DNA of 64,000 bases, taken from assembly GCF_001442535.1 (NCBI RefSeq), contig NZ_CP013141.1:2239242-2303241 (forward strand), written 5' to 3'. Made by a program: the position numbers and the translations under genes. Below are positions 18,312 to 42,267 of the stretch, one piece after another. The notes under the pieces were generated by a model, which saw only the letters and a program-made list of their open reading frames with translations, was not told the origin of the DNA and did not search any database. How positions within the stretch are numbered: the first letter of the stretch is position 1; every line of letters begins with the position of its first letter. The DNA is from Lysobacter antibioticus. Lineage in GTDB: Bacteria > Pseudomonadota > Gammaproteobacteria > Xanthomonadales > Xanthomonadaceae.

Positions 18312-19049
18312 TCACCCAGCCCGCACCGTCCGCTGCTCGATGCGTTTCTCCGGTGCCGCATTGACGACGATCCGGTCGACGTAGATACCCGGCAGGTGCA
18401 CGTGATCGGGGTCGATCGCGCCGACTTCGACCAGTTCCTCGACTTCGGCGATGCAGACCTTGCCGGCCATCGCGCAGGCCGGGTTGAAGTTGCGCGCGGT
18501 CTTGCGGAACACCAGGTTGCCGGCCTTGTCGGCCTTCCAGGCCTTGACCAGCGACACGTCGGCCTTGAGCGCGGTTTCCATGACGTAATGGTGGCCGTCG
18601 AACTCGCGCGTTTCCTTGCCGTCGGCCACCACGGTGCCGTAGCCGGTGCGGGTGAAGAAGGCCGGGATGCCGGCGCCGCCGGCGCGCAGGCGCTCGGCCA
18701 GGGTGCCCTGCGGATTGAATTCGAGTTCGAGTTCGCCGGACAGGAACTGACGCTCGAATTCCTTGTTCTCGCCGACGTAGGACGAGATCATTTTCTTGAT
18801 CTGGCGCGTTTCCAGCAGCAGGCCCAGGCCGAAACCGTCGACACCGGCGTTGTTGGAGATCGCGGTGATGCCCTTGACGCCGCTGTCGCGCAACGCGCCG
18901 ATCAGGGCCTCGGGAATGCCGCACAGGCCGAAGCCGCCGACGGCCAGGGTCTGCCCGTCCGCCACCACGTCCTGCAGGGCTTGTTTCGCACTGGGGTACA
19001 GCTTGCTCTTCGCGGCGCCAGCGGGCGTCGCGGCGATGGCCTCGGCCAT
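18312..19049 (-). CDS. scoA: 3-oxoacid CoA-transferase subunit A
   Basis: Large partner of the scoB product, 245 residues. It shows the family's CoA-binding loop [13 protein letters not shown] near residue 38 and the conserved [20 protein letters not shown] and [20 protein letters not shown] regions. Together the subunits form a succinyl-CoA:3-ketoacid transferase used in ketone-body or branched-acid catabolism. The start at 19049 has GGAG upstream (RC of caactcctttg). It is divergent from the ATP-grasp gene. See scoB for the LPS-locus link. Confidence 0.94.
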
Positions 19050-19166
19050 GGGACAACTCCTTTGCGGGATGGGCGCAGTTTAGCCTGCGGCCGGGTCCGG
19101 ACGTAGCGGACTTTCGGGCAATACCGCGACAATGCCCCGATCGTGTGCCGACGCTAGACTTGCGAC

Positions 19167-20078
19167 ATGAGCCGACTCGCCCTGGTCACCGCCATCGCCG
19201 CCGCCGGGCAGGACGACGACCTGTCGCCCCTGCTCCAGGCCTGTACCGAACGCGGCATCGCCGCCGAGATCCGCGCCTGGGACGACCCCAGCGTGGCCTG
19301 GGCACGATACGACGCCGTACTGCTGCGCTCGCCCTGGGACTACAGCGAACGCCTCGACGAATTCCTGGCCTGGTGTGAACGCGTCGATGCGCGCACGCGC
19401 CTGATCAATCCCTGGCCGGTGGTGCGCTGGAATACCGACAAGCATTATCTGGCCGACCTCGCCGCGCGCGGCGTGCCGGTGGTGCCGAGCGCGTTCGTCG
19501 AACCCGACATGGATGCGCTGCCGGCCTTGCAGGAGTTTCTCGCCGCCTATCCGGACGCCGACGAATTCGTGGTCAAGCCCGCGATCAGCGCCGGCTCGCG
19601 CGACACCCAGCGTTATGCGCGCGCGCAAGAATTCGCCGCGGCCAATCATCTCGCGCGCCTGCTCGACGAGGGCCGCAGCGCGATGCTGCAGCCCTATCTG
19701 GCTTCGGTCGATCGGGACGGCGAGACCGCGCTGGTGCACTTCAACGGCGTGTTCAGTCACGCCATCCGCAAAGGCGCGATGCTGCAACGCGAGGATGCCT
19801 TGAACCTGCGCGCGGTGGAACGCATCACCGCGCGCGAGGCCGGCGACGACGAACGCAGGGTCGCCCTGCATGCGCTGACCGCGATGACGGCGCGGCTCGA
19901 TCTCGAAGAGCCGTTGCCGTACGCCCGCGTCGACCTGATCCGCGACGGCGAAGGCCAACCGCAGCTGCTGGAACTGGAGTTATGCGAACCCTCGCTGTTT
20001 TTCGCTCACGCCGAAGGGAGCGCCGAGCGTTTCGCCGAAGTGCTGGCCGAGCTGCTGGCGACGATGCAGGTCGATTGA
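19167..20078 (+). CDS. ATP-grasp domain protein
   Basis: Predicted ATP-dependent carboxylate-amine/thiol ligase of 303 residues. The N-terminal pre-ATP-grasp part includes YDAVLLRSPWDYSERLDEFL. The ATP-binding core has FVVKPAISAGSRDTQRY, where the Lys binds ATP, and the Mg-binding end LPYARVDLIRDGEGQPQLLE-LELCEP. These patterns match the RimK/DcsG-like group that includes a cycloserine-pathway ligase, but the substrate here is unknown and no pathway partners are adjacent. Stands alone, with a strong bidirectional terminator between it and convergent xanB. Confidence 0.85.
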   Translation: MSRLALVTAIAAAGQDDDLSPLLQACTERGIAAEIRAWDDPSVAWARYDAVLLRSPWDYSERLDEFLAWCERVDARTRLINPWPVVRWNTDKHYLADLAARGVPVVPSAFVEPDMDALPALQEFLAAYPDADEFVVKPAISAGSRDTQRYARAQEFAAANHLARLLDEGRSAMLQPYLASVDRDGETALVHFNGVFSHAIRKGAMLQREDALNLRAVERITAREAGDDERRVALHALTAMTARLDLEEPLPYARVDLIRDGEGQPQLLELELCEPSLFFAHAEGSAERFAEVLAELLATMQVD

Positions 20079-22594: not shown

Positions 22595-22809
22595 GCCGCC
22601 AATGTGGCGCCGTCCCACCGGGCCGTGCCGTCACACATGGGCGCGGTACGCGGTGCTGTACGGTCCTGGCCCTAGAGACGGCCCGCCCTCCCCCGTTTCC
22701 CCAACCCCGTTTCTAGAGTCTTCGCTCCTGCGTGGGCCGGCCGTCTCCGTTAGAATCGTGGGTTCTCGGCCGCTCCTGGCCCAGCACCCCCACAAGGAAT
22801 CCCCGCACG

Positions 22810-23556
22810 ATGAAGATCCTCGTCGGTTACAAGCGCGTGGTGGACTACAACGTCCGCATTCAGGTCAAGCCGGATGGCTCCGGCGTGGTCACCGACGGCG
22901 TCAAGCTGTCGGCCAATCCGTTCGACGAAATCGCCCTGGAAGAAGCCCTGCGCCTGCGCGACAAGGGCATCGCCACCGAGGTCGTGGTCGCGACGATCGC
23001 CCCGGTCGACGCCCAGGCGCACCTGCGCAACGGCCTGGCCATGGGCGCCAATCGCGCCGTGCACGTGGTCTCGGACCAGCCGATCCAGCCGCTGACCGCC
23101 GCGCGCGCCCTGCTCAAGCTGATCGAGAAGGAACAGCCGGACATCGTCATCCTCGGCAAGCAGGCCATCGACGACGACGCCAACCAGACCGGCCAGATGC
23201 TGGCCACGCTGTGGGGCCGCCCGCAGGCGACCTTCGCCTCCAAGCTCGAAGTCGAAGGCGGCAAGGCCACGGTGACGCGCGAAGTCGACGCCGGCCTGGA
23301 AACGTTGGAAGTCGATCTGCCGGCGGTGATCACCACCGACCTGCGCCTCAACGAGCCGCGCTTCATCAAGCTGCCCGACATCATGAAGGCCAAGAGCAAG
23401 CCGCTGGAGACCATCGCCTTCGCCGATCTCGGCGTCGACACCGGCGACACGCTCAAGACCACCCATTACGCGCCGCCGCCGAAGCGCAGCAAGGGCGTGA
23501 TGGTCAAGGACGCGGCCGAACTGGTCGCCGCACTCAAGGCTAAGGGGCTGCTGTAA
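22810..23556 (+). CDS. etfB: Electron transfer flavoprotein subunit beta
   Basis: AMP-binding subunit of the soluble electron carrier that collects electrons from acyl-CoA and related dehydrogenases, 248 residues. It begins MKILVGYKRVVDYNVRI and contains the ETF-beta signature around NPFDEIALEEALRL and the GKQAIDDDANQTGQMLA segment. The start is the ATG at 22810. The stop and the etfA start share a base (TAATG), giving translational coupling. The chromosome beyond etfA holds the variable LPS locus. Confidence 0.96.
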   Translation: MKILVGYKRVVDYNVRIQVKPDGSGVVTDGVKLSANPFDEIALEEALRLRDKGIATEVVVATIAPVDAQAHLRNGLAMGANRAVHVVSDQPIQPLTAARALLKLIEKEQPDIVILGKQAIDDDANQTGQMLATLWGRPQATFASKLEVEGGKATVTREVDAGLETLEVDLPAVITTDLRLNEPRFIKLPDIMKAKSKPLETIAFADLGVDTGDTLKTTHYAPPPKRSKGVMVKDAAELVAALKAKGLL

Positions 23557-24503
23557 TGAGCAAAGTTCTGATCGTCGCCGAACATCTCAACGGCAAGCTC
23601 AACGCGTCGACCGCCAAGTGCGTGTCGGCCGCGCAGGCGCTGAAGCCGGACTCCATCGACATCGTCGTGCTCGCCGCCGACCCGGCCGCCGTCGCCGCCG
23701 AAGCCGCGCAGATCGCCGGCGTCGCCAAGGTGCTGACCATCGCCAACGCCGCCAACGCCAATGCCATCGCGCAGGTGCTCGCACCGCAGGTCGCCGCGTT
23801 GGCCAAGGGCTACAGCCACGTGTTCGGCCCCAGCACCACCTTCGGCAAGGACCTCATGCCCTGCGTCGCCGCCCTGCTCGGCGTCGCCCAGGTGTCCGAC
23901 GTCATGGCCGTCGAAGGCAGCCACACCTTCAAGCGCCCGATCTACGCCGGCAACGCCATCGTCACCGTCGAGGCCCCGGCCGACCACACCGTGGTCGCCA
24001 CCGTGCGTACCGCCTCGTGGCCGGAAGCGGCGAAGGGCGGCAGCGCCGCGGTCGAGGCCGCCTCGGTCGACGCGAGCCTGCCGAGCCACACCCGGTACAT
24101 CGGCCTGGCCGCCGGCAAGTCCGACCGTCCCGACCTGCAGAGCGCCAGACGCGTCGTCTCCGGCGGACGCGGCGTGGGGTCGGCGGACAACTTCAAGATC
24201 ATCTACGACTTCGCCGACAAGCTCGGCGCCGCCGTGGGCGCCTCGCGCGCCGCGGTCGACGCCGGCTATGTGCCCAACGAGATGCAGGTCGGCCAGACCG
24301 GCAAGATCATCTCGCCGGAGCTCTACGTCGCCGTCGGCATCAGCGGCGCGATCCAGCACCTGACCGGCATCAAGGACGCCGGTACCATCGTCGCGATCAA
24401 CAAGGACGGCGAAGCGCCGATCTTCGAGATCGCCGACATCGGTCTGGTGGGCGACCTGTTCAAGCTGTTGCCGGAGCTGGAAGCAGCGCTTGCTTCCGCC
24501 TGA
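23556..24503 (+). CDS. etfA: Electron transfer flavoprotein subunit alpha
   Basis: FAD-binding subunit of ETF, 315 residues. The C-terminal FAD domain shows SGGRGVGSADNF and VGASRAAVDAGYVPNEMQ-VGQTGKII patterns and the GISGAIQHLTG loop. It pairs with etfB directly upstream and delivers electrons to the ETF-QO gene product of this window. It ends just before a perfect palindrome. In Xanthomonas etfA marks one border of the LPS locus. Confidence 0.97.
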   Translation: MSKVLIVAEHLNGKLNASTAKCVSAAQALKPDSIDIVVLAADPAAVAAEAAQIAGVAKVLTIANAANANAIAQVLAPQVAALAKGYSHVFGPSTTFGKDLMPCVAALLGVAQVSDVMAVEGSHTFKRPIYAGNAIVTVEAPADHTVVATVRTASWPEAAKGGSAAVEAASVDASLPSHTRYIGLAAGKSDRPDLQSARRVVSGGRGVGSADNFKIIYDFADKLGAAVGASRAAVDAGYVPNEMQVGQTGKIISPELYVAVGISGAIQHLTGIKDAGTIVAINKDGEAPIFEIADIGLVGDLFKLLPELEAALASA

Positions 24504-24592: not shown

Positions 24593-26965
24593 TCATCGCA
24601 TCCAAACAGGCTTGACGATCTCCCACCCGCCTGCGGGATATTGACCGATCGACAGAATGTCGAAGCCACCAATCGTATTGGCCTGCCACATCCAAAGCGA
24701 TGTCTTGGCGTTATCGCGCCAAAATATATCGCTACGGCCATCACCGTCGAAGTCCCCGACTGTCGCAACCTTATACTCGTTAGATACACCTTTGCTGCCG
24801 ACGCCCAAGCGCGTGGCGCCGTTCATATACCACCAATCGATCTGCTGCAGATACGTATTCTGCCAAAGAATATCATCGCGGCCGTCACCATTCACATCAG
24901 CCGCGCCGAATACATACCAATTCTGGTTAGGGTATGGACTAACAAAGGCAATAGTGAAATCGGCCGCGCCTGGATCCGCGAGCCAAAACCATAATGTCGT
25001 ATTGTCCCGCCATAGCAGATCGCCGCGCCCGTCTCCATTGAAGTCGCCGATGGCCTCAATTGAATAGCCGCCACGCGGCACGAACTTACGCCCGACAGCG
25101 AGCCGCTGGGCCCCTCTCATCAACCACCAGTTGACTTCGCCGGTATCCGGGTTCATCCAGATTATGTCAGCAAAGCCATCGTTGTTGAGATCCCTCGCCC
25201 CTTTAATCTGCCAATTTCCTGACCGTGGATAATCCGCAACGAAATGGATAGAAAAGCTGCCATTGGTTTCAGCCTGCCAGACCCATAATGTATTGCTATC
25301 CCGCCAGAACAAATCAGAACGACCATCGCCGTTAAAGTCACCAGTCGCAGAAACCCAATATTGCTTAGCAATGAACTGACTACCGACATCGTCGCGCGAT
25401 GACCCGTTCATTTTCCACCAATCGAACCGCTGCATTTCCAGGTTGTTCCATAGAATGTCACTGCGACCATCTCCATTGACGTCGTTATGGACCGACGTCT
25501 TGAAAGACACTGCAGTAGCTCGAAACCCTGCTATCAAGGGCATCGCCTGATTCATGCTTCGCGCATTATCCGAGACGTTCGCGATACCGGTCGGCCGCCC
25601 TCCGTAGGAAATATTGGGGTTGGCGAAGTGGCGGATCGGAGTTTGCGACCCGTTCGCATAAGCCATCACCGTATTAAAACCCGCCGATGAGCTTTCGCGA
25701 TAGCTGTATGAATAAGCATGCGCGCCCGACTGGCCGGCATCTTCCTGATTGTGGGCTTGGCCCATGTTATGACCCAATTCGTGAGCCAAGCTCTCAGCGC
25801 GGCAAAAACTGCCGGCATCACTACCGTCACTTACCACCGAATAACCAAACCGTTCGTCGCGCGCGGTGACCAACTTCTGGTTGCCCCCTAAAATCCAAGC
25901 CGCCCCGCAACCCTTGCTCGAAGAACGAAACGGACGCACCAATCCCACCAAGTCAGCCCCGAACTGTTCGCGCGCGACCCACAGCGGCGCGAGCGAAGCA
26001 GGGACCGCAATCGGATTGGCACCGTCCCAACCAGTGACCTCATGGAGTGCAATGTTGTTGGATACGCTGTCGGAATAGTTGACCAACATGGTATGCACCA
26101 ACCGCAAACGCATGCCGATCGAGCTATTGGCATAAGCTTCGTTGGTCACATCAATCAAAAACGACAACCGGGTGACGGCACCCGACTGGCTTCCATAGAT
26201 TGCCGTCAAGCCGGGCGTATAGCCCAATGCGACATCAATCACCGGGGCCGTAATCGCAGTTGCGGCCGAGGTAGCAGCAAGCGCAGCCGTGCCGCTACTG
26301 CCGGTTGAGATCTGCGCTGTCTGGTAAGGCATCAGAGAATCATTCACTGGCGGACTCAATAAGCCTGGCGACTTGTGCAACTGCGAGGGATCGACCTCGA
26401 TAATCCAACTGACCCCATCGCGCACCGTCAATTCCAGAGAACCGCCTTCCGGAAGACCGAGGTTGCCGAAAGCGGCTTTCTCCCCGAATGTTAGAATCGC
26501 TTCTTGCCCAGCAGCACCCTCCAGACGGCCGATCCAAGTCCAGTCGCCACTTGGGTGCTCGACGTGCCGCTCGTATCGGAAACCCAGCAGCTGGCCCGAC
26601 GGGGCGCGAAACTCCAGTCGGCCGGTAGCGATGGCTCGCAATGCGTGATCTTCACTGACTTGCGCGCGATACCAAACCAACGCTCCCTCACGCTCTGGAG
26701 CGGTCACCATCGGATAGGCGGCCAATTCGCCGCGATCGGCCAGTGACGCGAAACGTACAGAAGCCGCGGAAGCAGACACCAATGCCGGGCGCGACTGAAT
26801 CGCAACTCCTCGCAAACTGGAAACAGTATGTCCTCCGGAGACACTCGCCGCCGCCGCCCCCTCCGTCAAGTCAACTGCGACAACTTCAGCCTGCGGATCG
26901 GAAGTACGACCGCAGGCAACAGCCAACAACAGAACACTAGTGGCAACAAACACACTTCTGCTCAT
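24593..26965 (-). CDS. Secreted reprolysin-like (M12) zinc metalloprotease with FG-GAP repeats, paralogue 2
   Basis: Exported metzincin of 790 residues, a clear paralogue of the protein at 14812-17214. It has a lipoprotein-like signal (VLLLAVACGRTS, Cys18), the same propeptide block RYERHVEHPSGDWTWIGRL, the zinc motif HELGHNMGQAHN (His395, Glu396, His399, His405) and a Met-turn FNTVMAYANG. The C-terminal repeats differ in detail, with DINGDGRSDILWNN / WWKMNG-type blades. The base composition is visibly more AT-rich than the neighbouring etf genes. It lies between etfA and the LPS cluster, where Xanthomonas has only LPS genes. Confidence 0.9.
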   Translation of the reverse strand: MSRSVFVATSVLLLAVACGRTSDPQAEVVAVDLTEGAAAASVSGGHTVSSLRGVAIQSRPALVSASAASVRFASLADRGELAAYPMVTAPEREGALVWYRAQVSEDHALRAIATGRLEFRAPSGQLLGFRYERHVEHPSGDWTWIGRLEGAAGQEAILTFGEKAAFGNLGLPEGGSLELTVRDGVSWIIEVDPSQLHKSPGLLSPPVNDSLMPYQTAQISTGSSGTAALAATSAATAITAPVIDVALGYTPGLTAIYGSQSGAVTRLSFLIDVTNEAYANSSIGMRLRLVHTMLVNYSDSVSNNIALHEVTGWDGANPIAVPASLAPLWVAREQFGADLVGLVRPFRSSSKGCGAAWILGGNQKLVTARDERFGYSVVSDGSDAGSFCRAESLAHELGHNMGQAHNQEDAGQSGAHAYSYSYRESSSAGFNTVMAYANGSQTPIRHFANPNISYGGRPTGIANVSDNARSMNQAMPLIAGFRATAVSFKTSVHNDVNGDGRSDILWNNLEMQRFDWWKMNGSSRDDVGSQFIAKQYWVSATGDFNGDGRSDLFWRDSNTLWVWQAETNGSFSIHFVADYPRSGNWQIKGARDLNNDGFADIIWMNPDTGEVNWWLMRGAQRLAVGRKFVPRGGYSIEAIGDFNGDGRGDLLWRDNTTLWFWLADPGAADFTIAFVSPYPNQNWYVFGAADVNGDGRDDILWQNTYLQQIDWWYMNGATRLGVGSKGVSNEYKVATVGDFDGDGRSDIFWRDNAKTSLWMWQANTIGGFDILSIGQYPAGGWEIVKPVWMR

Positions 26966-27250
26966 TACAGGGGCCTAATTCTCGCTGACTGAAGCGCTCG
27001 GGACCGCTCGTGGAACACCATTCTTCCAGGCAGCTCGAATCTTGAACCCGAGTCTACTCTCACGTCCTTACGAATTTGCATGTTTAGCTAATTTCGCGGC
27101 AGTAAGTCCGATCCGACCGGCCTATCAAGCCCATCCCTTACCTGACTTATTTCGCCAGGTCGGGCAAAATGCCGAATCTGGCGCTGCTTATGAATTAGCC
27201 CCGTGATCGGCGCCGGCACCAAATTCATACCTTTGAGGCCCCTCAACTCC
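26966..27250. other. Intergenic, divergent promoter region at the LPS cluster border
   Basis: About 285 AT-richer bases between the minus-strand metalloprotease and the plus-strand LPS cassette. It must hold both promoters. I could not assign -35/-10 boxes with confidence. Confidence 0.5.
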
Positions 27251-28231
27251 ATGATTCCCGCACTGCAACAAAGACAGCGTACTCGAGCGATTACCGGAAT
27301 GCTGTCGGTGATCTCGCCGGTGTACGGTTGCGAAGGCTGCCTGGAAGAACTGGTCGATCGGATTCGCGCCTCGATATCTCAATGCAAGATGCAGGCGGAA
27401 ATAATCCTGGTCAATGACGGCAGCCCTGACCGCTCCTGGGAGCGCATTGTCGAACTTGCCGCACGCTATCCAGAAGTGCGCGGCCTGCGCTTGTCGCGGA
27501 ATTTCGGCCAGCACTACGCCATTGCCGCAGGCCTCGAACACGCACGAGGGGAGCTCATTGCAGTCATTGACTGCGACTTGCAAGATCGCCCAGAAGAACT
27601 TCCGCGACTCGTTGAGATGATTCGACACGGCTACGATGCAGTGTTCGGCCAGCGTACCGAGCGCCAGGATTCGATGCTTAAGCGGTTCACCTCATACACC
27701 TTCTTTCGCACTTTGAGTTATTTGACCGACGTACCCCAGGATCACAGCACGGCGAATTTCGGCGTCTTCAGCCGCAAGGTTATCGACACGGTCAACCTGA
27801 TGCCGGAAGCTGACCGTTGTTTCCCGCTAATGGTTAAGTGGACCGGCTTTCGCAGTACTGCGGTTCCAGTCGAGCACGCGGAACGTCTGCAAGGCCAAAG
27901 CAGCTATAGCCTCGGCAAACTGATTCGGCTAGCGACCAATATCGTGCTTACCTACTCTGACAAGCCCTTGCGTCTGGTCGTTCGGGTTGGCTTGGTTTTC
28001 TCCCTGATCGCATTCGCGATCGTATTGCTGGCCATCTATCGCTACAGTCTCGGCGACGTAGCCGTGGCTGGGTTTACCAGCGTTATTGCTTCGATCTGGC
28101 TACTTGGTGGCGCGACCATTTTTTGCCTCGGGGTTACCGGGCTATATCTAGGCCGGCTGTTCAACGACACCAAGGGCCGGCCTTACTACATCGTCAGCGA
28201 CCAACTCAACACCCCCGAGGAAACTCCGTGA
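27251..28231 (+). CDS. GT2 polyprenyl-phosphate glycosyltransferase (GtrB/ArnC-like)
   Basis: Membrane-anchored family 2 transferase of 326 residues from this start, predicted to load a sugar onto undecaprenyl phosphate. The N-terminal GT-A domain has VISPVYGCEGCLEEL, VNDGSPDRSW and the metal-binding DCDLQDRPEE. The QGQSSYSLGKLIRLA motif and two C-terminal membrane helices (about residues 230-305) are typical of the GtrB/ArnC/DPM1 group. The start is uncertain: ATG 27251 has GAGG 12 bases upstream, ATG 27299 begins exactly at homology, and GTG 27203 is also open. Its stop overlaps the next GTG start. Confidence 0.88.
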   Translation: MIPALQQRQRTRAITGMLSVISPVYGCEGCLEELVDRIRASISQCKMQAEIILVNDGSPDRSWERIVELAARYPEVRGLRLSRNFGQHYAIAAGLEHARGELIAVIDCDLQDRPEELPRLVEMIRHGYDAVFGQRTERQDSMLKRFTSYTFFRTLSYLTDVPQDHSTANFGVFSRKVIDTVNLMPEADRCFPLMVKWTGFRSTAVPVEHAERLQGQSSYSLGKLIRLATNIVLTYSDKPLRLVVRVGLVFSLIAFAIVLLAIYRYSLGDVAVAGFTSVIASIWLLGGATIFCLGVTGLYLGRLFNDTKGRPYYIVSDQLNTPEETP

Positions 28232-29385
28232 TCGATTGCAGCTCCACTTCCGGGGAACCGCTGCTCTGCGCTTCCCCACTCGATAGCCAGCGATTTGGCT
28301 TACGTGTATTCCGCGGCATATTGAAGAACGTGGATGAACGTGCATTGCTACGCGAGATGATCGAAGGGTCCGCGGATATCGCGATCATTCGCACGCCGGC
28401 CGGCAGCGCCCCACAACTTCACCGTCTGGCACGTTATGGCATGGCGCCGATCCACGCCGATACCTTGGTGTACTACCAGGCATCTCTTGCCGACTATGCA
28501 CCAAAGCCCTTACGCAATGAGGATCTGGTCTTTAGCGAAGCAACGCCGGACGACAAAGTTGAGCTCGATGCGCTGGTAGCCACCACGTTCGACGGCTACG
28601 TTAGCCACTACCATGCGAACCCACGACTGTCTCCCGGTGCCATCTTGGCTGGCTATGCCGAATGGGCATCGGGATATATCAGCAGAGAGGTGGCGGGAAA
28701 GATCACTTGGACGGCGCGCCGTAAAGGCCGCATCGTTGCTTTTGCCTGCTGTGCTTTTGACGAGCAAGCGCAAGTATGTGAAGGCGTGCTTTACGGTGTA
28801 CACCCCGATCACGCAGGTGGCGGGCTGTATGGCGACCTGATCCGTCACACCCAACGCGAGTTCCGTGATCGCGGCTTTGTCACCATGAAGGTCTCCACCC
28901 AAATATGGAACCTAGCTGTGCAGAAGGTCTGGGCGCGCGAAGGCTTCGCATTGAACTTTGCCTACGATACTTATCATATCAACGCCATGCTCTCCGCTGG
29001 CGAACTACTCGTCGATCGCGAGCTGGTATTTGACAGCGAACAAGTACGTCGGTTCGCCGAGATTACCGGTGACGATAACGCCATACATCTGGACGACCGG
29101 GCTGCTAAGAACGAGGGCTTTGAAGCACGCATCACGCACGGCATGCTCGCCGGCGGCGAGCTGTCGCGAATCTTCGGCACCGACATACCGGGCCCCGGCA
29201 CATTGTTCTTGCGCTCGGATTTCGTATTCATGCGACCAATCTACTGCGGCCGCCCCCACAGACTCCATATTCGCTACCTCGCGCCGCCCAGCGCAGGAGG
29301 CCACATACCTGCGGTAGCAACCATTCGCGACGCTGCCGGCCGCATATGCTTGCTGTGCTACAGCGATTTGCTCAAACGCAGTTGA
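28228..29385 (+). CDS. Fusion of WecD-like GNAT N-acyltransferase and MaoC-like (R)-enoyl-CoA hydratase
   Basis: A 385-residue two-domain enzyme. Residues about 15-250 resemble WecD, the acyltransferase acting on dTDP-4-amino-4,6-dideoxygalactose, with a WecD-type N-terminal subdomain and the acyl-CoA loop HPDHAGGGLYGDLI near 192-205. Residues about 265-385 are a MaoC/PhaJ hot-dog domain. The hydratase dyad D-x4-H is intact (GDDNAIHLDD: Asp282, His287), followed by ITHGMLAG. GTG at 28228 is the start because GAGGAA lies upstream and it overlaps the previous stop (GTGA). Inferred role: make an (R)-3-hydroxyacyl-CoA in place and transfer it to an amino sugar made by the WecE-type enzyme of the cassette. 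Confidence 0.85.
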   Translation: MIDCSSTSGEPLLCASPLDSQRFGLRVFRGILKNVDERALLREMIEGSADIAIIRTPAGSAPQLHRLARYGMAPIHADTLVYYQASLADYAPKPLRNEDLVFSEATPDDKVELDALVATTFDGYVSHYHANPRLSPGAILAGYAEWASGYISREVAGKITWTARRKGRIVAFACCAFDEQAQVCEGVLYGVHPDHAGGGLYGDLIRHTQREFRDRGFVTMKVSTQIWNLAVQKVWAREGFALNFAYDTYHINAMLSAGELLVDRELVFDSEQVRRFAEITGDDNAIHLDDRAAKNEGFEARITHGMLAGGELSRIFGTDIPGPGTLFLRSDFVFMRPIYCGRPHRLHIRYLAPPSAGGHIPAVATIRDAAGRICLLCYSDLLKRS

Positions 29386-29413
29386 ACTCCACCACCACCC
29401 AACCAAGAATCTC

Positions 29414-29779
29414 ATGGCCTATTTCTTCATCGCATTAATGCTTGCCCTAACTTGTTACGGGCAATTAGTGCTCAAGTGGCGGGTCAACCTAGCCGGCTCG
29501 CTCCCTTCAGATCTGAACGGACAGCTGCATTACATATTCTCGCTGCTTAGCTCACCCTGGGTGATCAGCGGCTTAGCATCGGCATTTCTCGCATCGATCT
29601 GCTGGATGCTAGCTTTGACCAAACTGGATTTGAGTCGCGCCTACCCGTTCACAGCACTGAGTTTTATTCTGATCCTGATCTCCAGTGCATTTTTCTTTGG
29701 AGATACGCTCAGCCTCGGCAAGATGATTGGCACGGCACTGATCATAGGCGGAGTATGCGTGATCGCCTTTGTGACCTGA
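29414..29779 (+). CDS. Small EamA/SMR-like membrane protein (ArnE/ArnF-like)
   Basis: A 121-residue protein with four predicted membrane helices, the size and layout of SMR-type or ArnE/ArnF subunits. It includes CYGQLVLKWRVN and, in the last two helices, DLSRAYPFTALSFILILISS and GTALIIGGVCVIAF, the small EamA pattern. ArnE/ArnF are thought to flip undecaprenyl-phosphate-aminoarabinose, and by position this protein may flip the lipid-linked sugar made by the upstream GT2 enzyme. It starts 28 bases after the fusion gene. Confidence 0.8.
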   Translation: MAYFFIALMLALTCYGQLVLKWRVNLAGSLPSDLNGQLHYIFSLLSSPWVISGLASAFLASICWMLALTKLDLSRAYPFTALSFILILISSAFFFGDTLSLGKMIGTALIIGGVCVIAFVT

Positions 29780-29901
29780 TTCGACTGCTTGCAGCCTATT
29801 TTCGAGCACCACCATATAGCCCCCCTGCTTCATCGCACCACGAAAGCCCCACCAAAACCCATTCACATTGCATGCAATAGAACAGAATCGGAGACACCAG
29901 G

Positions 29902-30522
29902 ATGGCGCAAATTACCAGCGGGGCACGCAGCATCCTTTCGTTACCGGCCGCGTATGATGCCCTCCAGAACTTGCTGGGCGCAAATCGCTCGCGCAGCCGA
30001 ATCAGTTCGGACCATATACGTGCGAAAGACGGCGATATTGTCCTGGATGTGGGCTGCGGCACCGCGGAGGTACTCGATCACATAAAGGCTAACATCACTT
30101 ATTTCGGCTTCGACTTATCGCAAAGCTATATCGATGCAGCGATACGCAGCTACGGATCACGTGGCACGTTCCAATGCCGCGATCTCACCTCCCTTGCTCC
30201 AAGCGAATTGCCTCCGTGCAACATCGCAATCGCCATCGGACTATTGCATCACTTGGATGACGAAGGCGCTATCGGGCTTCTTTCCAATCTGCACAGTCGA
30301 CTCGCGCCTGGCGGCCGCCTGATCACCATTGACGGCGCTTATTATCCAGACCAATCCTCGATCGCTCGTTATATCCTTTCGAGAGATCGAGGACAGAACG
30401 TTCGCGAAGGCGAAGCCTATCGAGCACTGGTGCCATCCTCTTTCAGCCGCGTCGAACTGATTCGCCGCGACGACCTGCTAAATATTCCCTATACCCACGC
30501 CGTGCTGGAGTGCACCAAGTGA
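29902..30522 (+). CDS. Class I SAM-dependent methyltransferase
   Basis: Soluble methyltransferase of 206 residues with the SAM-binding motif VLDVGCGTAEVL near residue 48 and the acidic motif II FGFDLSQSYIDAA. The post-II region IGLLHHLDDEGA and LAPGGRLITIDGA complete the Rossmann fold. The substrate is unknown. Position in the cassette suggests O- or N-methylation of the sugar, its acyl group or the glycan. A 120-base gap precedes it. It ends by overlapping the aminotransferase start (GTGA). Confidence 0.85.
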   Translation: MAQITSGARSILSLPAAYDALQNLLGANRSRSRISSDHIRAKDGDIVLDVGCGTAEVLDHIKANITYFGFDLSQSYIDAAIRSYGSRGTFQCRDLTSLAPSELPPCNIAIAIGLLHHLDDEGAIGLLSNLHSRLAPGGRLITIDGAYYPDQSSIARYILSRDRGQNVREGEAYRALVPSSFSRVELIRRDDLLNIPYTHAVLECTK

Positions 30523-31652
30523 CGATCCCGTTCAATAAGCCCTTCATGACAGGGCGCGAGCTGTCTAACATCGCCCAGGCCCACATGAACGGACATCTAT
30601 CCGGTGATGGTTTTTTTACCAAGCAATGCCATCGCTGGCTGGAGACGCACAGCAGAGCACAACGCGCCCTGTTGACCCATTCCTGTACAGCGGCACTGGA
30701 GATGGCTGCGTTGCTGATCGATCTCGAGCCCGGCGATGAAGTTATCCTGCCATCATTCACCTTCGTCTCTACCGCCAACGCTTTCGTGCTGCGCGGCGCC
30801 GTGCCTGTATTCCTCGATATCCGAGCCGATACGCTCAATATCGACGAGCGCCTGATCGAAGCGGCTATTACTCCGCGCACCAAGGCAATCTGCGTAGTTC
30901 ACTATGCCGGCGTGTCCTGCGAGATGGACACCATCCTTGAGATAGCTGCCCGCCACAATCTACGAGTGATCGAAGATGCGGCCCAGGGCATTTACTCGAC
31001 CTATAAAGGACGACCATTGGGAGCAATCGGCGAGCTCGGCGCGTTGAGCTTCCACGAAACCAAGAACATCATCTCAGGAGAAGGTGGCGCGTTACTCATT
31101 CGCGATGAAGCGCTCGCAGAACGGGCCGAGGTCATTCGGGAGAAAGGCACTAATAGAAGCAAGTTCTTCCGGGGACAAGTCGACAAGTACACATGGGTCG
31201 ACGTCGGCTCTTCGTATCTGCCCAGCGAGCTGATTGCCGCTTTCCTTGCTGCTCAGATCGATGAAGGCGAAACGATTACTCGAAACCGCTTAGCGATTTG
31301 GGATCGCTACCATGCATGGGCCGAAAAATACGAAGTGCGAGGTCTGTTACGTCGCCCGATCGTACCCGCACATTGCACCCATAACGCACACATGTACTAC
31401 CTGCTGATGCCCGATCTCGAGCGCCGTACGCGCTTTATCGCAAAAATGAAGGAATCCGGTATCTCCACGGTATTTCACTACATCCCGCTGCACAGCGCTC
31501 CCGCCGGGAAACGGTATGGCCGTCATGCCGGCGATATGGCGATCACCGATTCGACTAGCGAACGTTTGGTCCGCCTGCCGTTGTGGGTGGGATTAGAAGA
31601 GCATTTGGATCGCGTACTGGCTGCAGCTGATGACGCGCTTGCCGGCCTCTAA
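30519..31652 (+). CDS. WecE/RffA-type dTDP-4-keto-6-deoxyhexose aminotransferase
   Basis: PLP enzyme of the DegT/DnrJ/EryC1 family, 377 residues. The pattern matches WecE, which forms dTDP-4-amino-4,6-dideoxy-D-galactose: N-terminal IPFNKPFMTGREL, LPSFTFVSTANAF, DAAQGIYSTYKGRPLG and the PLP-lysine region FHETKNIISGEGGAL (Lys182). GTG at 30519 is taken as the start because it overlaps the upstream stop and GGAG lies 8 bases before it. It would supply the amino sugar acylated by the fusion enzyme. The rmlA/rmlB genes needed for its substrate are not in the window. Terminator follows. Confidence 0.9.
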   Translation: MTIPFNKPFMTGRELSNIAQAHMNGHLSGDGFFTKQCHRWLETHSRAQRALLTHSCTAALEMAALLIDLEPGDEVILPSFTFVSTANAFVLRGAVPVFLDIRADTLNIDERLIEAAITPRTKAICVVHYAGVSCEMDTILEIAARHNLRVIEDAAQGIYSTYKGRPLGAIGELGALSFHETKNIISGEGGALLIRDEALAERAEVIREKGTNRSKFFRGQVDKYTWVDVGSSYLPSELIAAFLAAQIDEGETITRNRLAIWDRYHAWAEKYEVRGLLRRPIVPAHCTHNAHMYYLLMPDLERRTRFIAKMKESGISTVFHYIPLHSAPAGKRYGRHAGDMAITDSTSERLVRLPLWVGLEEHLDRVLAAADDALAGL

Positions 31653-31675
31653 GAGCTGAAAGTAGCGAAAAAAAG

Positions 31676-31701
31676 AGCCCAGCACGCAGGCTGGGCTTTT
31701 T
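31676..31701. terminator. Bidirectional terminator between converging LPS blocks
   Basis: AGCCCAGC (31676-31683) and GCTGGGCT (31690-31697) form an 8-bp stem with a six-base loop, with an A-run before and TTTTT after, between the plus-strand cassette and the minus-strand block. Confidence 0.88.
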
Positions 31702-31759
31702 GCAATCATCTACGCGCTCTATATCGCGAACTAGCAAGCCAAGCTATCGCCCTTTCGCC

Positions 31760-33826
31760 CTATTCGATATCTCCGACGCGCTTTAGCACCGTCCCATACC
31801 AGCGCAGCACACCCGCTCCGCTGGAGCGGACACGCACCTCCAAGGAGCTCACTTTCGCATTGAGTGTAAAGCGCAGAGCAATGCGTTGACGACCGCTGCC
31901 GGTGACTCCGCGCATGGCATGCTCGATTCTGTTCCCGCTGAATACGTCGACCACACCGAAACCATTAGCGGCATCGCCCACACCTTCGACGTCGAAAGTT
32001 GCCTCATATACGCCACTGCTCAATGTTATGTAAGGGCCAAAGGCGAGATAGCCGCTCTGGCCGGAAGCCTCCACAGCCTGCAAGCCACTTATATTGACGA
32101 GTTGGCCCGTATTGCGTAACCCATTCGCTGTGGGCAACAACTGCAAAGGCCGATCCAGGTGCCGGTCCCAGCCCCGCAAACCTTTCGCAATGTTGCCGCT
32201 AAAAAGATAAGCAGCGTACTGATCGTGCCGATAGATACGGACCGGCTTACCCACCATGGATTCGAGCAAGAGCCAGTTCACCGCCTTGGCTTCCGCATCA
32301 CTCAACAACAGGAAGCTGGCGCCCTGCCAGGCCTCAGGTCTGTACCAACGCTCAGATGAAAGGTGATACATGGGCATCGGCAGCCCCTGCTCGATCGATA
32401 TTTGCCGAACCTTTGCCTTACTATCGCTGAAGACAGTAATAGCTCCGGCATTCCAATAGGTACCGTAGCCATACTTCAACCCATTGGACTCGAGCATCCG
32501 CGCCATATGACGCAAAGGTACTTCGTCGCGGCCACGCAAAGCCTGCGAAAAAGGATGGGATGGCCAAATACTGCTAGACAGCAATAATAGAACCAGCACC
32601 GCAACCCCAGCAGCCTGACCGGCGCGGGCATGATAGGCAGATGAGAATGCCCAACCAACAACGAGCATGATTGCAAGGAATAGCGACGGCACCAGATAAC
32701 GAGATGCGTAGGCCGGTTGCGACATGTCGGCGATCGTCGTAGTCATCTGCAGGAAAAAGAACAACGCCAACGAAACGGCCGTAAAAGCCGCAAACAAACG
32801 CAGTTCGGCACGGCTTTCGCGCACACCCCAAGCTGAAGCAACCGGGATCAGCACAAGCAACGTCAGCCCACTTACCAGGCGCAAAGCTTCGCCTGCCCCA
32901 ACCATCGAAGCGACCAGCCCGCCCTCCTGCGGCACCACCCCAAGAATCTCAAGCGCTCCGCGCAGCGTGAGCCAGAAATTGCGGATCAGCCCTTCGAAGC
33001 TCAACCAACGAGCGACAGAGGCACCATTGAGATTGTTAACGCCACTGAGTACAGCCGCATGGAGCACCATCCCTACGGCGAGGGCAGATATCAGAATCAA
33101 AATACACAACAAGCTGCGATTCAGTCTGGAATCCCAGCGCCATCCCGCCGCCCGTCCTTTGACGAGCGCGTCAATTATCAATGCCCCAAATAATGGCAGG
33201 AGGTACGAAGCAAGTGCGCGCTGCGGATTACTGAAGGATACGAGCGCCACGTGCAGCCAAATCGCCAAGCCCCAGATCCAAACGCCCGACCCAATCGCGG
33301 CCAGATAGCGCCACGTGAAGTAGAGCAAGAAGCAAGCGAGCGAGAAAACCACTCCATACGAAACTTGTCCGTATAAGTTCTCAGCGCCTTGAAGCGACAA
33401 CGCCCCGGCAATCAAGGCAACACAAAATAAGCGAATCCAGCGCGATGGCGTCACCAGCCTGCTAGCCAGCCACACCGACAGCAGAATCAGTAACGACGAG
33501 ATTGCACCAGACAACGCATGCAGCTTGTACCCATTAGCGAAGAACGACAGAAAGGGCACGATGAACCATTGCCCGAATACCACCATCAAATCGCCATTGA
33601 CGTATGTCCAGTCCGTCGGAAACAGGCGCCCGGTATCGTATATCTCTTGTGCAAGTAGATTCTTGGCCGCCGAATCGGAGTGAAACGCAACCTGATAGCC
33701 ATAGATGAGGTAATAGACGAGTAAGAGCAGGTTAAGCGCGAGCACTCCAATCAGCCCCAGTTTGGCGCCCTTTTCCAAACCCATCAACGCAGTACGCAAT
33801 CTAGCGTCTAGTACAGGATTACTCAC
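31760..33826 (-). CDS. Multi-span membrane protein, GT-C-like periplasmic glycosyltransferase candidate
   Basis: A 688-residue protein with about 11 hydrophobic spans in residues 15-450, then a soluble C-terminal part of about 240 residues ending in a beta-rich module. An acidic motif in the first periplasmic loop (HSDSAAKNLLAQEIYDTG) matches the Asp-containing loop of GT-C enzymes that use polyprenyl-phosphate sugars. I cannot name the family. It is the last gene of the minus-strand LPS block. GTG at 33826 is preferred because GAGG lies 7 bases upstream. ATG at 33859, coupled to the rmd stop as TGATG, is the alternative. Confidence 0.7.
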   Translation of the reverse strand: MSNPVLDARLRTALMGLEKGAKLGLIGVLALNLLLLVYYLIYGYQVAFHSDSAAKNLLAQEIYDTGRLFPTDWTYVNGDLMVVFGQWFIVPFLSFFANGYKLHALSGAISSLLILLSVWLASRLVTPSRWIRLFCVALIAGALSLQGAENLYGQVSYGVVFSLACFLLYFTWRYLAAIGSGVWIWGLAIWLHVALVSFSNPQRALASYLLPLFGALIIDALVKGRAAGWRWDSRLNRSLLCILILISALAVGMVLHAAVLSGVNNLNGASVARWLSFEGLIRNFWLTLRGALEILGVVPQEGGLVASMVGAGEALRLVSGLTLLVLIPVASAWGVRESRAELRLFAAFTAVSLALFFFLQMTTTIADMSQPAYASRYLVPSLFLAIMLVVGWAFSSAYHARAGQAAGVAVLVLLLLSSSIWPSHPFSQALRGRDEVPLRHMARMLESNGLKYGYGTYWNAGAITVFSDSKAKVRQISIEQGLPMPMYHLSSERWYRPEAWQGASFLLLSDAEAKAVNWLLLESMVGKPVRIYRHDQYAAYLFSGNIAKGLRGWDRHLDRPLQLLPTANGLRNTGQLVNISGLQAVEASGQSGYLAFGPYITLSSGVYEATFDVEGVGDAANGFGVVDVFSGNRIEHAMRGVTGSGRQRIALRFTLNAKVSSLEVRVRSSGAGVLRWYGTVLKRVGDIE

Positions 33827-33858
33827 TTCTCCCCCTCGTTTAACGCCCCGAGCACCCA

Positions 33859-38782
<4,924 letters not shown>

Positions 38783-38783
<1 letters not shown>

Positions 38784-40189
38784 CAGGAAACCACCTTGCC
38801 GAGCGCGTGCTCGATTTGCATCAACACCTGGGCGCCGCTTCGCGAAAGACGAACGGCCCGCTGCTGCTCGAATACCCCGCCAGCGGACCAACGGTCAACC
38901 GGCATCGGGGCTACCAGCCCCGAATTCACCGACAGTGCGCGCAGCCGACCTTTTATCCCCGGATAGCGCTCGAGCCTTTGGACCACGGCCTCGCGCCACT
39001 CCGGCCGACGCAACACCTGCCGCATTACGCATACCACGATAAATCGCGCGACACGCATAGACCAGCGCAACACTCGCTTTGGCAAGGAAAGGCAAAATCG
39101 GAACAGGCGCGCGCTATAACGCAGAGGCGCGGTGATACGCCATGAAACACTGGAGCGGATCAGAGTCAGATGCTGTTCGAGCGCCTTCGCAGCCGCCTGC
39201 CAATGCTCTTCGGACGCGACGTGTATATCGAAACGCCCTTTCAAGATGTCGTATTGCTCGCGCATCGAACGCAAGTTCGCATGCCCCTCCTCGACCTTGG
39301 ACAAGAGTTCACGCTGGTGGATGGCGCTTTCATGCTCCATTTGCTCGTGCAAGGTCTTCAATTGCTCGCACGCCGTGCGCAGCTTGCCGCCCAGTTCCTC
39401 GCTCATGCCCCTCAGACGCTCGGCATGCTCGTTGGCATTCGCGGCGATTGCCTCGCATCGTGATTGATTTTCCTTGATCAGCGAAAAATACGACGACGAC
39501 GAGGTGCCGCTAAAGGCGATCCCATCGAACACATTGGGACCGCCGCTGAATCTTTCGAGTCGCGCCCGTTCTTCGCTGGAGACGTAGTAACGATTGAGGC
39601 CATCGAAGTAGGCATAGACATACCCCTTCGCGAGCAACCCTGGTTCCCAGCCTTCGTGAGACTGAACCTGACTCATTGGCAGCGTGCTCTCGACCACGAC
39701 GATCCACGGCCGCACAGGCGACGTGCGCCAGCCCGCCAGCACGTCGCCTTCAGCGCCTTCCACATCGACCTTGAGCCAGTGGACTGTACGCTCGCCGACT
39801 TGGCCGAGCAAATCATCCAGGGTGATTGCCGCGACGATAGTCGGCTCGACGGCGTAGCCCGAGTTCGCGTGCGATTCAGCGATATCGGCCTTTACGGTGC
39901 TGAGACCGGTATCGGGCATTTGAAAGAAGCTTGCGACGCCTCCTTCGGATGTGACCGCGGCATGGACCACGACTTCCTCCGGCCGAGCCTTGCGAAGCTC
40001 CTCGGCATAGGACGCCATGGCGTCGACATGCACCCCGCGCCAGCCTTGTTCGTAGAACAACCGGCTAACCGAATCGATGTCCGGACTTTGCGCGCCGATA
40101 TCGATGTAGAAGCCATCTTTCACATCACTCAACGCCCGCCAAAGCAGGATGTCTTCGAAGTTCTGCGCGTAGGAAATCAATCTAGACAT
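38783..40189 (-). CDS. FkbM-family methyltransferase with long coiled coil
   Basis: A 468-residue protein. Residues about 1-205 form an FkbM-type SAM methyltransferase, with YAQNFEDILLWRAL, DIGAQSPDIDSVSRLFY and WLKVDVEGAEGDVLAG. Residues about 237-345 form a charged coiled coil, ending in the SVSWRITAPLR signature. The basic, partly hydrophobic C-terminus (about 350-390) may bind the membrane. In E. coli O8/O9, WbdD combines a methyltransferase with a coiled coil that measures chain length, and this gene lies in the same kind of operon (wzm, wzt, chain GTs). A chain-end role is an inference. The start at 40189 was chosen over 40201. Confidence 0.87.
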
Positions 40190-40243
40190 GGTTGCGATCA
40201 CATTCTTAAAGCTGGCCGCTGGGCAATCGAAAAACGGCGCGAA

Positions 40244-41476
40244 TCACGCCCGTGAAATATCGAACTTCGCATCGAGCCAACTAGTGCCGATGAATACCGG
40301 CAGATTGGCGTTGATCACGTCGAACACCAGCAGGTTGTCGACCCATTCGTAATTGTCGACCAGGTGGGTATCGGTGCTGACCAGCGCAGGCGAGACCGAA
40401 TAGGAGCCCTGGCCGAGGGTGCAGGTGAACGTCAGGTCGAACCTCAGTTCATCGCCCGTCTTGAGATCGTGCTGCACCTGCTGTGTATGCCAAGTATTGG
40501 TACCCCACACCACGTGCCCCTGCCTATCGCGCAGCATGAAGCCCAGGACGAGGCGCGGCACTTCATCCTGAATGGAGGACTCCAAGCGCAACATGAGCCG
40601 CTGGCCGACGCGCGCGACTTTGACTTCTTCCAGGCTGATCGCGTCGAGCAATTGGAGTTTGGCGACCCTAGCTTGTCCAGTACCGCTGCGGGTCTGCAAC
40701 CAGCCTTGCGAGTCGCGCTGTTGCTCGATCAAACCCGCGGAATTCTCTTTCTCCGCCATCATTGAGTTGTAGTAGTCGACGACCTCGTCCGGCAAACCGT
40801 CCTTCACCACCCGGCCCGCATCGATCAGGATGACCCGATCGCAAAGGGACTTGACGTCCCCCATGCTATGGGTCACCAGCATGATCGACACGCCGTCCTC
40901 GCGGAACTTGCGCATCCGATCGAAACTTTTGTGCTGGAAGTAGCTGTCGCCGACGGACAAGGCTTCATCGACGATCAGCAAGTCCGGCTTGAATGCGGTA
41001 GCCACGCTGAAGGCGACTCGCATCTGCATACCGCTGGAATAAGTCCGCACAGGCTGATCGAAGTAGTCGCCGACTTCGGCGAAAGCCTCGATATCCGGCA
41101 TGGCCGCCTCGATCTCGGCCTGACCGTACCCCATCAGACCCGCGGAGTGATAAGCGTTCTGGCGCCCGGTAAAATCGGGATTGAAGCCCATGCCCAGTTC
41201 CAGAATCGCGGCGACCCGGCCGGTGCGCTCGACACTGCCCTCACTCGGGCGAGTGGTGCCCGTGATCAGCTTCAGGAGCGTGCTCTTGCCTGCCCCATTC
41301 TGGCCAACCACTCCGACAGCCTCCCCCGGGGAGATGGAGAACTCGACATCGCGCAGCACCCAATGCTCTTCACTCGGACGCACTGGAAGACCGAACCAAG
41401 AAGCCGCGCGCATCCATTCGCTGCGCCAACGGCGATAGGCCTTGCCCAAACCCTTGACATGCAGTTGACCGCTCAT
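40244..41476 (-). CDS. wzt: O-antigen ABC transporter ATP-binding protein
   Basis: Cytoplasmic ATPase of the Wzm/Wzt O-polysaccharide exporter, 410 residues. Walker A is GQNGAGKST (residues 59-67), the signature YSSGMQMRVAFS, and Walker B DLLIVDEALSVGD. After the nucleotide domain (to about 255) comes a C-terminal domain of about 150 residues of the Wzt carbohydrate-binding type, with RLVLGFMLRDRQGHVVWGTN. In E. coli O9a this domain recognises the methylated chain end. Its start overlaps the wzm stop as ATGA. Confidence 0.96.
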   Translation of the reverse strand: MSGQLHVKGLGKAYRRWRSEWMRAASWFGLPVRPSEEHWVLRDVEFSISPGEAVGVVGQNGAGKSTLLKLITGTTRPSEGSVERTGRVAAILELGMGFNPDFTGRQNAYHSAGLMGYGQAEIEAAMPDIEAFAEVGDYFDQPVRTYSSGMQMRVAFSVATAFKPDLLIVDEALSVGDSYFQHKSFDRMRKFREDGVSIMLVTHSMGDVKSLCDRVILIDAGRVVKDGLPDEVVDYYNSMMAEKENSAGLIEQQRDSQGWLQTRSGTGQARVAKLQLLDAISLEEVKVARVGQRLMLRLESSIQDEVPRLVLGFMLRDRQGHVVWGTNTWHTQQVQHDLKTGDELRFDLTFTCTLGQGSYSVSPALVSTDTHLVDNYEWVDNLLVFDVINANLPVFIGTSWLDAKFDISRA

Positions 41477-42267
41477 AGCGCGTCCACCATTTCCGGACTG
41501 GCTCGACGAAATACCATCAGTGCGACCAGCAACAGAGCCACTGCCGCCAGGAACAGCCAGCCCAACTCACGCCACATCGGCGGCGTACCGAATACGAGGA
41601 CGTTCTGATAGCTCGCAAACAAGGGATACAGTGGATTCATCTTGAACCACTTCTGGTAGGCCTCGGGCAGGATGCTGACCGAGTAGACGATCGGCGTTAA
41701 CCAGAACAGCGCTTGCATGACGACCGGAACCACCTGACCGATATCGCGCATGAATACGTTGAGCACGCCCAGGACCAGCCCTACTCCCATCGCCAGCATC
41801 AAGGTCAGGGCGATCAGTATCGGAAGCCATAGAGCCTGCATGTCCGGGAAATGACCCAATGCGGCGAACACACCGAAGATCGCCAGCAAAAGCAGCAAAT
41901 TGGTGACGAGCATGGTGCCGGCGGTGATCAGCGGCAGACAGATGCGCGGGAAGGCCATCTTCTTCATTAGATTGCCGTTGTCGATGAATATACCGAGACA
42001 ACGCATGATCGTCTCGAAGAACAAGGTCCAGCCCAGTGTTCCTGCCATCAGGTACAACGAATAAGCGTATTTGTTGTCGATGCCCGGCAACTTCGCCGCA
42101 AGGATCTTCGACAAGATCAAGGCGAAGATCAGCACCTGGGCCAACGGATGAATGATCATCCACAAGCCGCCGAGCTTGCTGCGGATGAAGCGCGCGCGCA
42201 GATCGTTCTTGATCGAAGAAAAGATGAAATAGCGGTATCTCAATACCGCCAGCAACATGTCTTTCAT
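41473..42267 (-). CDS. wzm: O-antigen ABC transporter permease
   Basis: Inner-membrane channel of the polysaccharide exporter, 264 residues with six membrane helices (ABC-2 family). The N-terminal interface region includes RARFIRSKLGGLWMIIHPL, and the helix end motif RDIGQVVPVVMQALFWLTPIVY is typical of Wzm/TagG/KpsM proteins. It works with Wzt to export the lipid-linked chain. Both neighbours overlap by ATGA, so the GT gene, wzm and wzt are one translational unit. Confidence 0.95.
   Translation of the reverse strand: MKDMLLAVLRYRYFIFSSIKNDLRARFIRSKLGGLWMIIHPLAQVLIFALILSKILAAKLPGIDNKYAYSLYLMAGTLGWTLFFETIMRCLGIFIDNGNLMKKMAFPRICLPLITAGTMLVTNLLLLLAIFGVFAALGHFPDMQALWLPILIALTLMLAMGVGLVLGVLNVFMRDIGQVVPVVMQALFWLTPIVYSVSILPEAYQKWFKMNPLYPLFASYQNVLVFGTPPMWRELGWLFLAAVALLLVALMVFRRASPEMVDAL

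Follow-up and report, generated by a model that had tools for sequence, protein, structure and literature searches.

A predicted lipid-carried acyl-amino-sugar cassette beside a rhamnan-type O-antigen operon in Lysobacter antibioticus

Three-component glycosylation systems are an established concept (PMC11127046). In wxc region 3 of Xanthomonas campestris pv. campestris, mutants in wxcK and wxcN lose the acetylated aminofucose (FucNAc) branches from the rhamnan chain (PMC4878081). The nearest known sugar to the one considered here comes from the viosamine island of Pseudomonas syringae, where 4-amino-4,6-dideoxyglucose (Qui4N, viosamine) carries a 3-hydroxybutanoyl and a 2-O-methyl group (PMC3927599). 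An N-3-hydroxybutanoyl group has also been described on another amino sugar (PMC8074265). Here we analyse a stretch of 64,000 nucleotides from Lysobacter antibioticus (contig NZ_CP013141.1, positions 2,239,242 to 2,303,241, forward strand), referred to as the window. It holds a cassette encoding a GT2 glycosyltransferase, an acyltransferase, an EamA-type membrane protein, a methyltransferase and a WecE-type aminotransferase, as well as a converging gene for a 688-residue polytopic protein. We propose, with a probability of roughly 0.6, that the cassette serves the adjoining ABC-exported, rhamnan-type O-antigen as a lipid-carried side-sugar system.

In this mechanism, dTDP-4-keto-6-deoxyglucose would come from RmlA and RmlB, whose genes lie elsewhere in the genome, and WecE would aminate it at C4 to yield dTDP-4-amino-4,6-dideoxygalactose (dTDP-Fuc4N). 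The acyltransferase is a fusion protein. Its MaoC half may add water to an enoyl-CoA (crotonyl-CoA is the probable substrate), giving the (R)-3-hydroxyacyl-CoA, from which the WecD-like half would move the 3-hydroxyacyl group to the 4-amino group. O-methylation of the acylated sugar by the methyltransferase would be the weakest of the cytoplasmic steps. The GT2 enzyme would then load the finished sugar onto undecaprenyl phosphate (Und-P), the EamA protein would flip the lipid-linked sugar, and the polytopic protein would attach it to the exported D-rhamnan as side branches. Families, catalytic residues, gene order, recurrence and the folds other than that of the polytopic protein were read from sequences or models. 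From these we infer every chemical step, the identity of the acyl group, the position of the methyl group, the acceptor and the linkage. The proposal is weakest on three points: the GT-C fold of the polytopic protein, what the methyltransferase acts on, and which acyl group the sugar carries.

The cassette and its predicted donor sugar

All six genes are intact according to open reading frame (ORF) and family searches, and Pfam and NCBIfam back the GT2, GNAT, EamA, S-adenosylmethionine (SAM)-methyltransferase and WecE assignments. The candidate loader (GT2; 27251-28231, plus strand) is an ArnC/GtrB-type Und-P sugar transferase with two C-terminal transmembrane (TM) helices at residues ~238-256 and 266-284. 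It matches the PDB sequences of GtrB sll0501 (E 3e-59) and ArnC (7e-51), is 34% identical both to E. coli ArnC and to YfdH/GtrB, and can by homology be placed among the GtrB/ArnC-type polyprenyl-phosphate sugar synthases. The EamA protein (29414-29779, plus strand) is small, has four TM helices and is a candidate flippase. Profile searches match it to ArnE (2e-10) and ArnF (5e-07) and not to YfdG/GtrA; a further match to the NCBIfam ArnF model (6e-15) lies under the cut-off. It falls among the small membrane flippases of the GtrA or ArnE/F type, with flipping itself predicted.

The last gene of the cassette (30510-31652, plus strand) encodes a WecE-type dTDP-4-keto-6-deoxyglucose 4-aminotransferase, which exceeds both curated NCBIfam cut-offs for WecE (601 against 435 bits and 600 against 375 bits). 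WecE gives the galacto product Fuc4N, whereas VioA gives the gluco product Qui4N. The protein shares 57% identity with E. coli WecE, compared with 30% for VioA of E. coli O7. As it is assigned to WecE, Fuc4N is the predicted sugar. Qui4N was set aside on the same two identities, and membership in a viosamine pathway was likewise rejected, the aminotransferase being nearer to WecE and the six cassette genes including no ketoacyl synthase III (KS III) or acyl carrier protein (ACP) genes for making an acyl group. The substrate of WecD is dTDP-4-amino-4,6-dideoxygalactose (PMC4964394). The same genome encodes RmlB and RmlA, both over their cut-offs, at 613 and 612 kb.

The acyltransferase gene (28228-29385, plus strand; likely start GTG at 28228) encodes a fusion of a WecD-type GNAT N-acyltransferase (residues ~1-252) with a MaoC (R)-enoyl-CoA hydratase (~257-385). 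The GNAT half has the WecD fold with an N-terminal partial GNAT domain, WecD being the closest fold. The MaoC half combines the hot-dog fold with the Asp/His dyad of the (R)-specific enoyl-CoA hydratases (MaoC/PhaJ). Of 131 aligned fusion rows, 127 retain this dyad, as do 11 of the 13 fusion loci L009-L021, which come from several phyla. The alignment covers the 120 listed of 505 homologues, mostly unnamed metagenome proteins, and some rows hold the same protein twice. Lysobacter sp. Root690 (L014) is counted both here and among L009-L021, and P0078, with a degenerate MaoC motif, was omitted from the folded alignment and counted in the dyad tally. The presence of a fused MaoC domain with its dyad leads us to predict an N-3-hydroxyacyl group. 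This group is probably 3-hydroxybutanoyl. A literature search over titles and the starts of abstracts, with few subscription papers, returned no GNAT-MaoC fusion for sugar acylation, and the word MaoC is absent from PMC4869667 and PMC4964394.

A first-pass annotation of this DNA had recognised the GtrB/ArnC-like GT2 enzyme, the ArnE-like membrane protein, the methyltransferase and the WecE-type aminotransferase, all of which are borne out by family, profile and identity evidence. It had also named an acyltransferase, which holds for the WecD-type GNAT half; the second, MaoC domain had been missed. The Arn- or Gtr-like logic it proposed, in which a sugar is made, loaded, flipped and attached outside, is well supported by homology, gene order and recurrence. 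Overall, that interpretation is partly supported.

The converging operon, recurrence and exchangeable modules

The cassette genes are closely spaced: two neighbouring pairs overlap, by 4 bp (GT2/acyltransferase) and 13 bp, and the other two are separated by 28 and 122 bp. A minus-strand operon with gaps of no more than 42 bp converges on them and ends 107 bp away. It starts with a GT4 glycosyltransferase (Pfam; 42264-43670), the ABC-2 permease Wzm (PF01061; 41473-42267) and Wzt, an O-antigen ABC exporter ATPase with a Wzt_C carbohydrate-binding domain (PF00005, PF14524; 40244-41476). These are followed by an FkbM methyltransferase (PF05050; 38783-40201), a large protein with two GT4 domains that is a candidate rhamnan-polymerising glycosyltransferase (Pfam; 35796-38789), the GDP-mannose 4,6-dehydratase Gmd (34745-35779; TIGR01472, 472.7 bits against a cut-off of 415), an Rmd-like NAD-dependent epimerase/reductase for GDP-D-rhamnose supply (33859-34767; Pfam GDP_Man_Dehyd/Epimerase, named Rmd from context) and the polytopic protein (31760-33826). 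Wzm, Wzt with its C-terminal binding domain and the GDP-D-rhamnose genes are together those of an ABC-transporter-dependent D-rhamnan O-antigen, with Rmd assigned by family and position only and no NCBIfam equivalog over its cut-off.

The spacing suggests co-transcription within each operon. A terminator-like hairpin (31676-31697, minus strand) lies between the two. By itself it is weak evidence, as the region has five such sites against 6.6 expected by chance. A promoter scan of the region returned fewer sites than shuffled sequence. Because the 688-residue protein is encoded at the end of the close-spaced minus-strand run and converges on the cassette, we group it with the backbone genes. 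This means that a predicted donor operon and a predicted acceptor operon abut tail to tail. The surrounding low-GC stretch is bounded by etfBA (22807-24503) and metB (43711-44892); GC content is 51-58% in the cassette genes, 55-63% in the minus-strand operon and 67% in the window outside 24593-43670.

The polytopic protein, encoded 32 bp 3' of rmd, has about 12 hydrophobic stretches and a soluble C-terminal part. The first-pass annotation had pointed to an Asp in its first loop. This residue, D51, is invariant in 121 of 121 aligned rows (the window protein and the 120 listed of 166 homologues), as is E61. Searches of Pfam, NCBIfam and PDB sequences gave no match, and its assignment as a putative GT-C side-sugar transferase draws on topology, motif and context. 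The C-terminal ~130 residues form a domain common to other O-antigen-locus proteins. It ends two large glycosyltransferases in genome G276 and several other long proteins, and small ORFs next to etfA or rmd encode it on its own. In the GT136 system, a C-terminal binding module binds O-polysaccharide and is not essential there (PMC11127046). By analogy with this precedent, an acceptor-binding role of the domain is plausible. Stand-alone copies of the domain were seen beside rmd, etfA or GT2 (L049, 1294-1803; L050, 1258-1812; L089, 13550-13939), and in L089 it also ends two large glycosyltransferases.

Within 395 genomes of the family, the polytopic protein has matches in 17, of which seven (own genome included) are full-length and close, three long and distant, and seven confined to the C-terminal domain. 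All seven with a close protein have wecE and the methyltransferase within ~4 kb, and at all eight loci with a close copy (these seven genomes, window included, and L003) the gene follows rmd and converges on the wecE/methyltransferase cassette. L003, filed under Tolypothrix, looks like a Lysobacteraceae contaminant. At L014, which has a distant copy, the cassette is present and runs in the same direction. A search of 369 class-level genomes found only the own genome at E 1e-30, and homologues among the matches listed include Burkholderiales and others. The full fusion occurs in 9 of the 395 family genomes. Among 37 fusion-matching loci, which range from Bacteroidota to Chloroflexota, 20 have the MaoC part, 31 have wecE within 10 kb, 27 have GT2 directly upstream and 24 have both. 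Of the 395 family genomes, 54 carry the wecE gene of this group, and these represent 21 of 54 genera. This frequency, together with the tested wxc region 3 (PMC4878081), goes against the earlier suggestion that the cassette as a set is new. Only 2 of 20 listed genomes of the same genus carry wecE, as expected for an exchanged serotype locus.

The position after wecE is regularly taken by a large polytopic protein. One of 420-850 residues with at least seven TM helices lies within the next two genes at 22 of 26 loci, compared with 12 of 439 other genes. The 26 loci are 28 minus L093 and L094, which have no wecE, and this count is biased because six of them (L087-L092) were fetched for carrying the GT-C candidate. 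Among held-out loci, chosen by wecE alone, 14 of 18 have such a protein there, compared with 4 of 248 other genes (20 loci, with L154 and L160 dropped because the simple gene caller missed their wecE). The adjacency exceeds chance. For most of these slot proteins, no relationship to the GT-C candidate family could be detected; Pfam placed none of ten polytopic proteins from such loci in a family over its cut-off, and profile comparison of the GT-C candidate was weak with slot family c7 (E 7e-4, probability 27%) and null with three others.

The acyl genes between GT2 and EamA or wecE also vary. There can be a GNAT-MaoC fusion; a GNAT alone; a LuxC-LuxE-AMP ligase-ketoreductase (KR)-ACP set with a GNAT-like partner (profile match E 1e-6); or WbqC with a hexapeptide transferase. 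The GT-C candidate family occurs with all four, in that order in the window and L003, L089 and L091, L087 and L088, and L090 and L092, which suggests that the protein does not read the acyl group closely. We tentatively propose, at slightly less than even odds, a family-wide modular diversification of the antigen. An ArnC/GtrB-type loader, an ArnE/F-like flippase and WecE would form a constant chassis for Und-P-linked Fuc4N, with a swappable acyl module of four kinds setting the N-acyl group. Exchange of the terminal transferase would be a separate process, drawing on polytopic families unrelated to one another, of which some have a mobile tail that is carbohydrate-binding-like. In L087 (14287-19756) and L088 (2397-7866), genes for LuxC, LuxE, the AMP-ligase, the ketoreductase, the ACP and the GNAT-like protein replace the fusion, and most genes of this set have relatives in L155, L156, L161, L163, L169 and L170, six of the 20 held-out loci.

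A Reprolysin-like metallopeptidase with FG-GAP repeats (24593-26965, minus strand), of equally low GC content, lies between etfA and the cassette, and proteins of its cluster c4 (nine members) recur beside other such loci. Further upstream, a gene at 19167-20078 (plus strand) exceeds the curated cut-off for the D-cycloserine synthetase DcsG (425 against 360 bits). The two ORFs preceding it (17289-18005 and 18033-19106) have no NCBIfam match at 1e-10, and 14812-17214 (minus strand) matches a Mep72-like metzincin far under the cut-off (133 against 645 bits).

Points against the proposal and rival readings

Several observations weigh against the proposed side-sugar system. An EamA homologue lies within 3 kb at only 10 of the 37 fusion-matching loci, and there is a single half-size EamA protein here where Arn has two. 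Three of the 131 fusion rows are without the dyad. In the Root690 fusion (L014, 10010-11035), the active-site segment of the hydratase is deleted while the GNAT half aligns normally, and one Myxococcaceae fusion also has no dyad. The hydratase would therefore be dispensable in some relatives. None of the loci scored for MaoC showed the two halves split, with MaoC encoded next to a GNAT-only gene. The methyltransferase, found in loci with other slot families, may act elsewhere. The polytopic protein, whose GT-C fold is putative, has no sequence link to ArnT, GtrS or YfdI. The first-pass annotation had named a GT-C gene without the cassette as a finding that would refute it. None occurs among the seven genomes with a close copy, and the distant copies (23-28% identity) do provide cases: L093 has two copies and the methyltransferase, with wecE absent from the 20 kb seen, and L094 has neither wecE nor methyltransferase in view.

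Among the rival readings, the one that survives best concerns the methyltransferase (29902-30522, plus strand), a class I SAM enzyme (Pfam Methyltransf_12/25) that we predict to be a sugar O-methyltransferase. The family is common (1835 homologues, 120 of them listed), and a homologue occupies the same position in part of the related loci. It is present at all nine wecE loci with the GT-C candidate family (L014 being a distant member) and at 3 of the 17 that lack this family (Fisher p 7e-5, with relatedness disregarded). A strict pairing was rejected, as it is broken by the held-out loci L156, L161, L163 and L166, where the methyltransferase stands with another slot family, and is confounded with Gmd. 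The claim is thus limited to the GT-C family implying methyltransferase and Gmd, in few independent lineages. Since all nine loci also have Gmd, methylation and backbone type are confounded, and the enzyme could act on the rhamnan, by internal or terminal methylation, and belong to the cassette by linkage only. We consider this unlikely, though worth keeping in mind: the methyltransferase stands beside EamA or wecE with other slot families at L006, L007, L104, L156, L161, L163 and L166, of which L007 and L104 have no Gmd in the stretch seen, and in the P. syringae viosamine island it is the amino sugar that VioM methylates (PMC3927599).

A second rival keeps the lipid-carried system and changes the sugar to a plain N-acetylated Fuc4N. 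Here, the GNAT half would use acetyl-CoA, as does WecD, its closest fold (PMC4964394), and the MaoC half would be a relic or serve another pathway. GNAT-only relatives filling the same position, the Root690 deletion and the Myxococcaceae fusion fit this view. A relic would decay, however, and the dyad is kept in nearly all rows and most loci, which makes plain acetylation distinctly improbable next to the predicted 3-hydroxyacylation.

Least probable is transfer of the lipid-linked sugar to a different acceptor, either a protein or, as Arn does, lipid A or core, with the polytopic protein as an unrelated O-antigen enzyme, such as an acyltransferase or capping enzyme. In favour of this reading are the ArnC and ArnE/F homology of loader and flippase and a polytopic protein whose GT-C fold is putative and which matches no known GT-C enzyme in sequence. 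Against it are the polytopic proteins recurring after wecE in both locus sets, the close copy behind rmd at every such locus and the C-terminal domain shared with other proteins of these loci.

Comparison with known systems

As far as the literature was searched, the overall plan of the system is known, while the Und-P-linked acyl-Fuc4N donor, the self-supplying fusion and the swapping of modules look new. The fusion and the acyl-module swapping, both missed by the first-pass annotation, are the more unusual features. For the predicted Und-P acyl-Fuc4N donor, titles and abstract starts, with few subscription papers, yielded no report. The fusion would offer a one-protein route from an enoyl-CoA to an N-3-hydroxyacyl sugar. 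The loci form a natural series in which acyl group and terminal transferase are exchanged separately, and could thus reveal which part of the sugar is read by the outside glycosyltransferase. If the unrelated slot proteins are indeed GT-C enzymes, they would comprise several new glycosyltransferase families.

With the Arn system of E. coli, which handles 4-amino-4-deoxyarabinose (Ara4N), the cassette shares the ArnC-like loader, an ArnE/F-like flippase and an aminotransferase of the same superfamily. It differs in having WecE instead of ArnB, no ArnA or ArnD, a single flippase gene, an O-antigen locus as its setting and no sequence link to ArnT. In enterobacterial common antigen (ECA), Fuc4NAc is part of a repeat unit of the Wzx/Wzy type. 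The ECA pathway shares WecE and the WecD fold of the GNAT half, whereas E. coli WecD (224 residues) is without MaoC and the listed ECA genes include no Und-P monosaccharide loader. In Gtr (YfdGHI), the loader YfdH is related to our GT2 and the side sugar is added after export, as is predicted here (PMC11127046). In contrast, the flippase here is EamA/ArnE-like instead of GtrA-like, the predicted sugar is a rare acylated amino sugar and the GT-C candidate is unrelated to YfdI by sequence. The GT136 system for pentofuranose is set apart by its description, with a phosphoribose-type loader and a MATE flippase in place of the GtrB-like loader and EamA-like flippase (PMC11127046).

FdhC and QdhC also N-3-hydroxybutanoylate dTDP-amino sugars for O-antigens, and as described they act on the 3-amino-3,6-dideoxy sugars Fuc3N and Qui3N, with no fused hydratase mentioned in the accessible text (PMC4869667). 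The viosamine island combines aminotransferase, acyl-making, N-acyl transfer and methyl genes to give an N-3-hydroxybutanoylated, O-methylated 4-amino-4,6-dideoxy sugar. There, KS III, KR, ACP and VioB make and transfer the acyl group, as one GNAT-MaoC fusion is predicted to do here, and a large VioT transfers the sugar to a flagellin glycan (PMC3927599). The Lysobacter cassette has the galacto-type WecE and a predicted lipid carrier. The nearest experimentally tested analogue is wxc region 3, where amino-sugar branch genes also accompany a rhamnan O-antigen. By its description, that region makes a 3-amino sugar by a dTDP-3-keto route, whereas the Lysobacter locus combines the WecE 4-amino route with an acyl-making fusion and a methyltransferase (PMC4878081).

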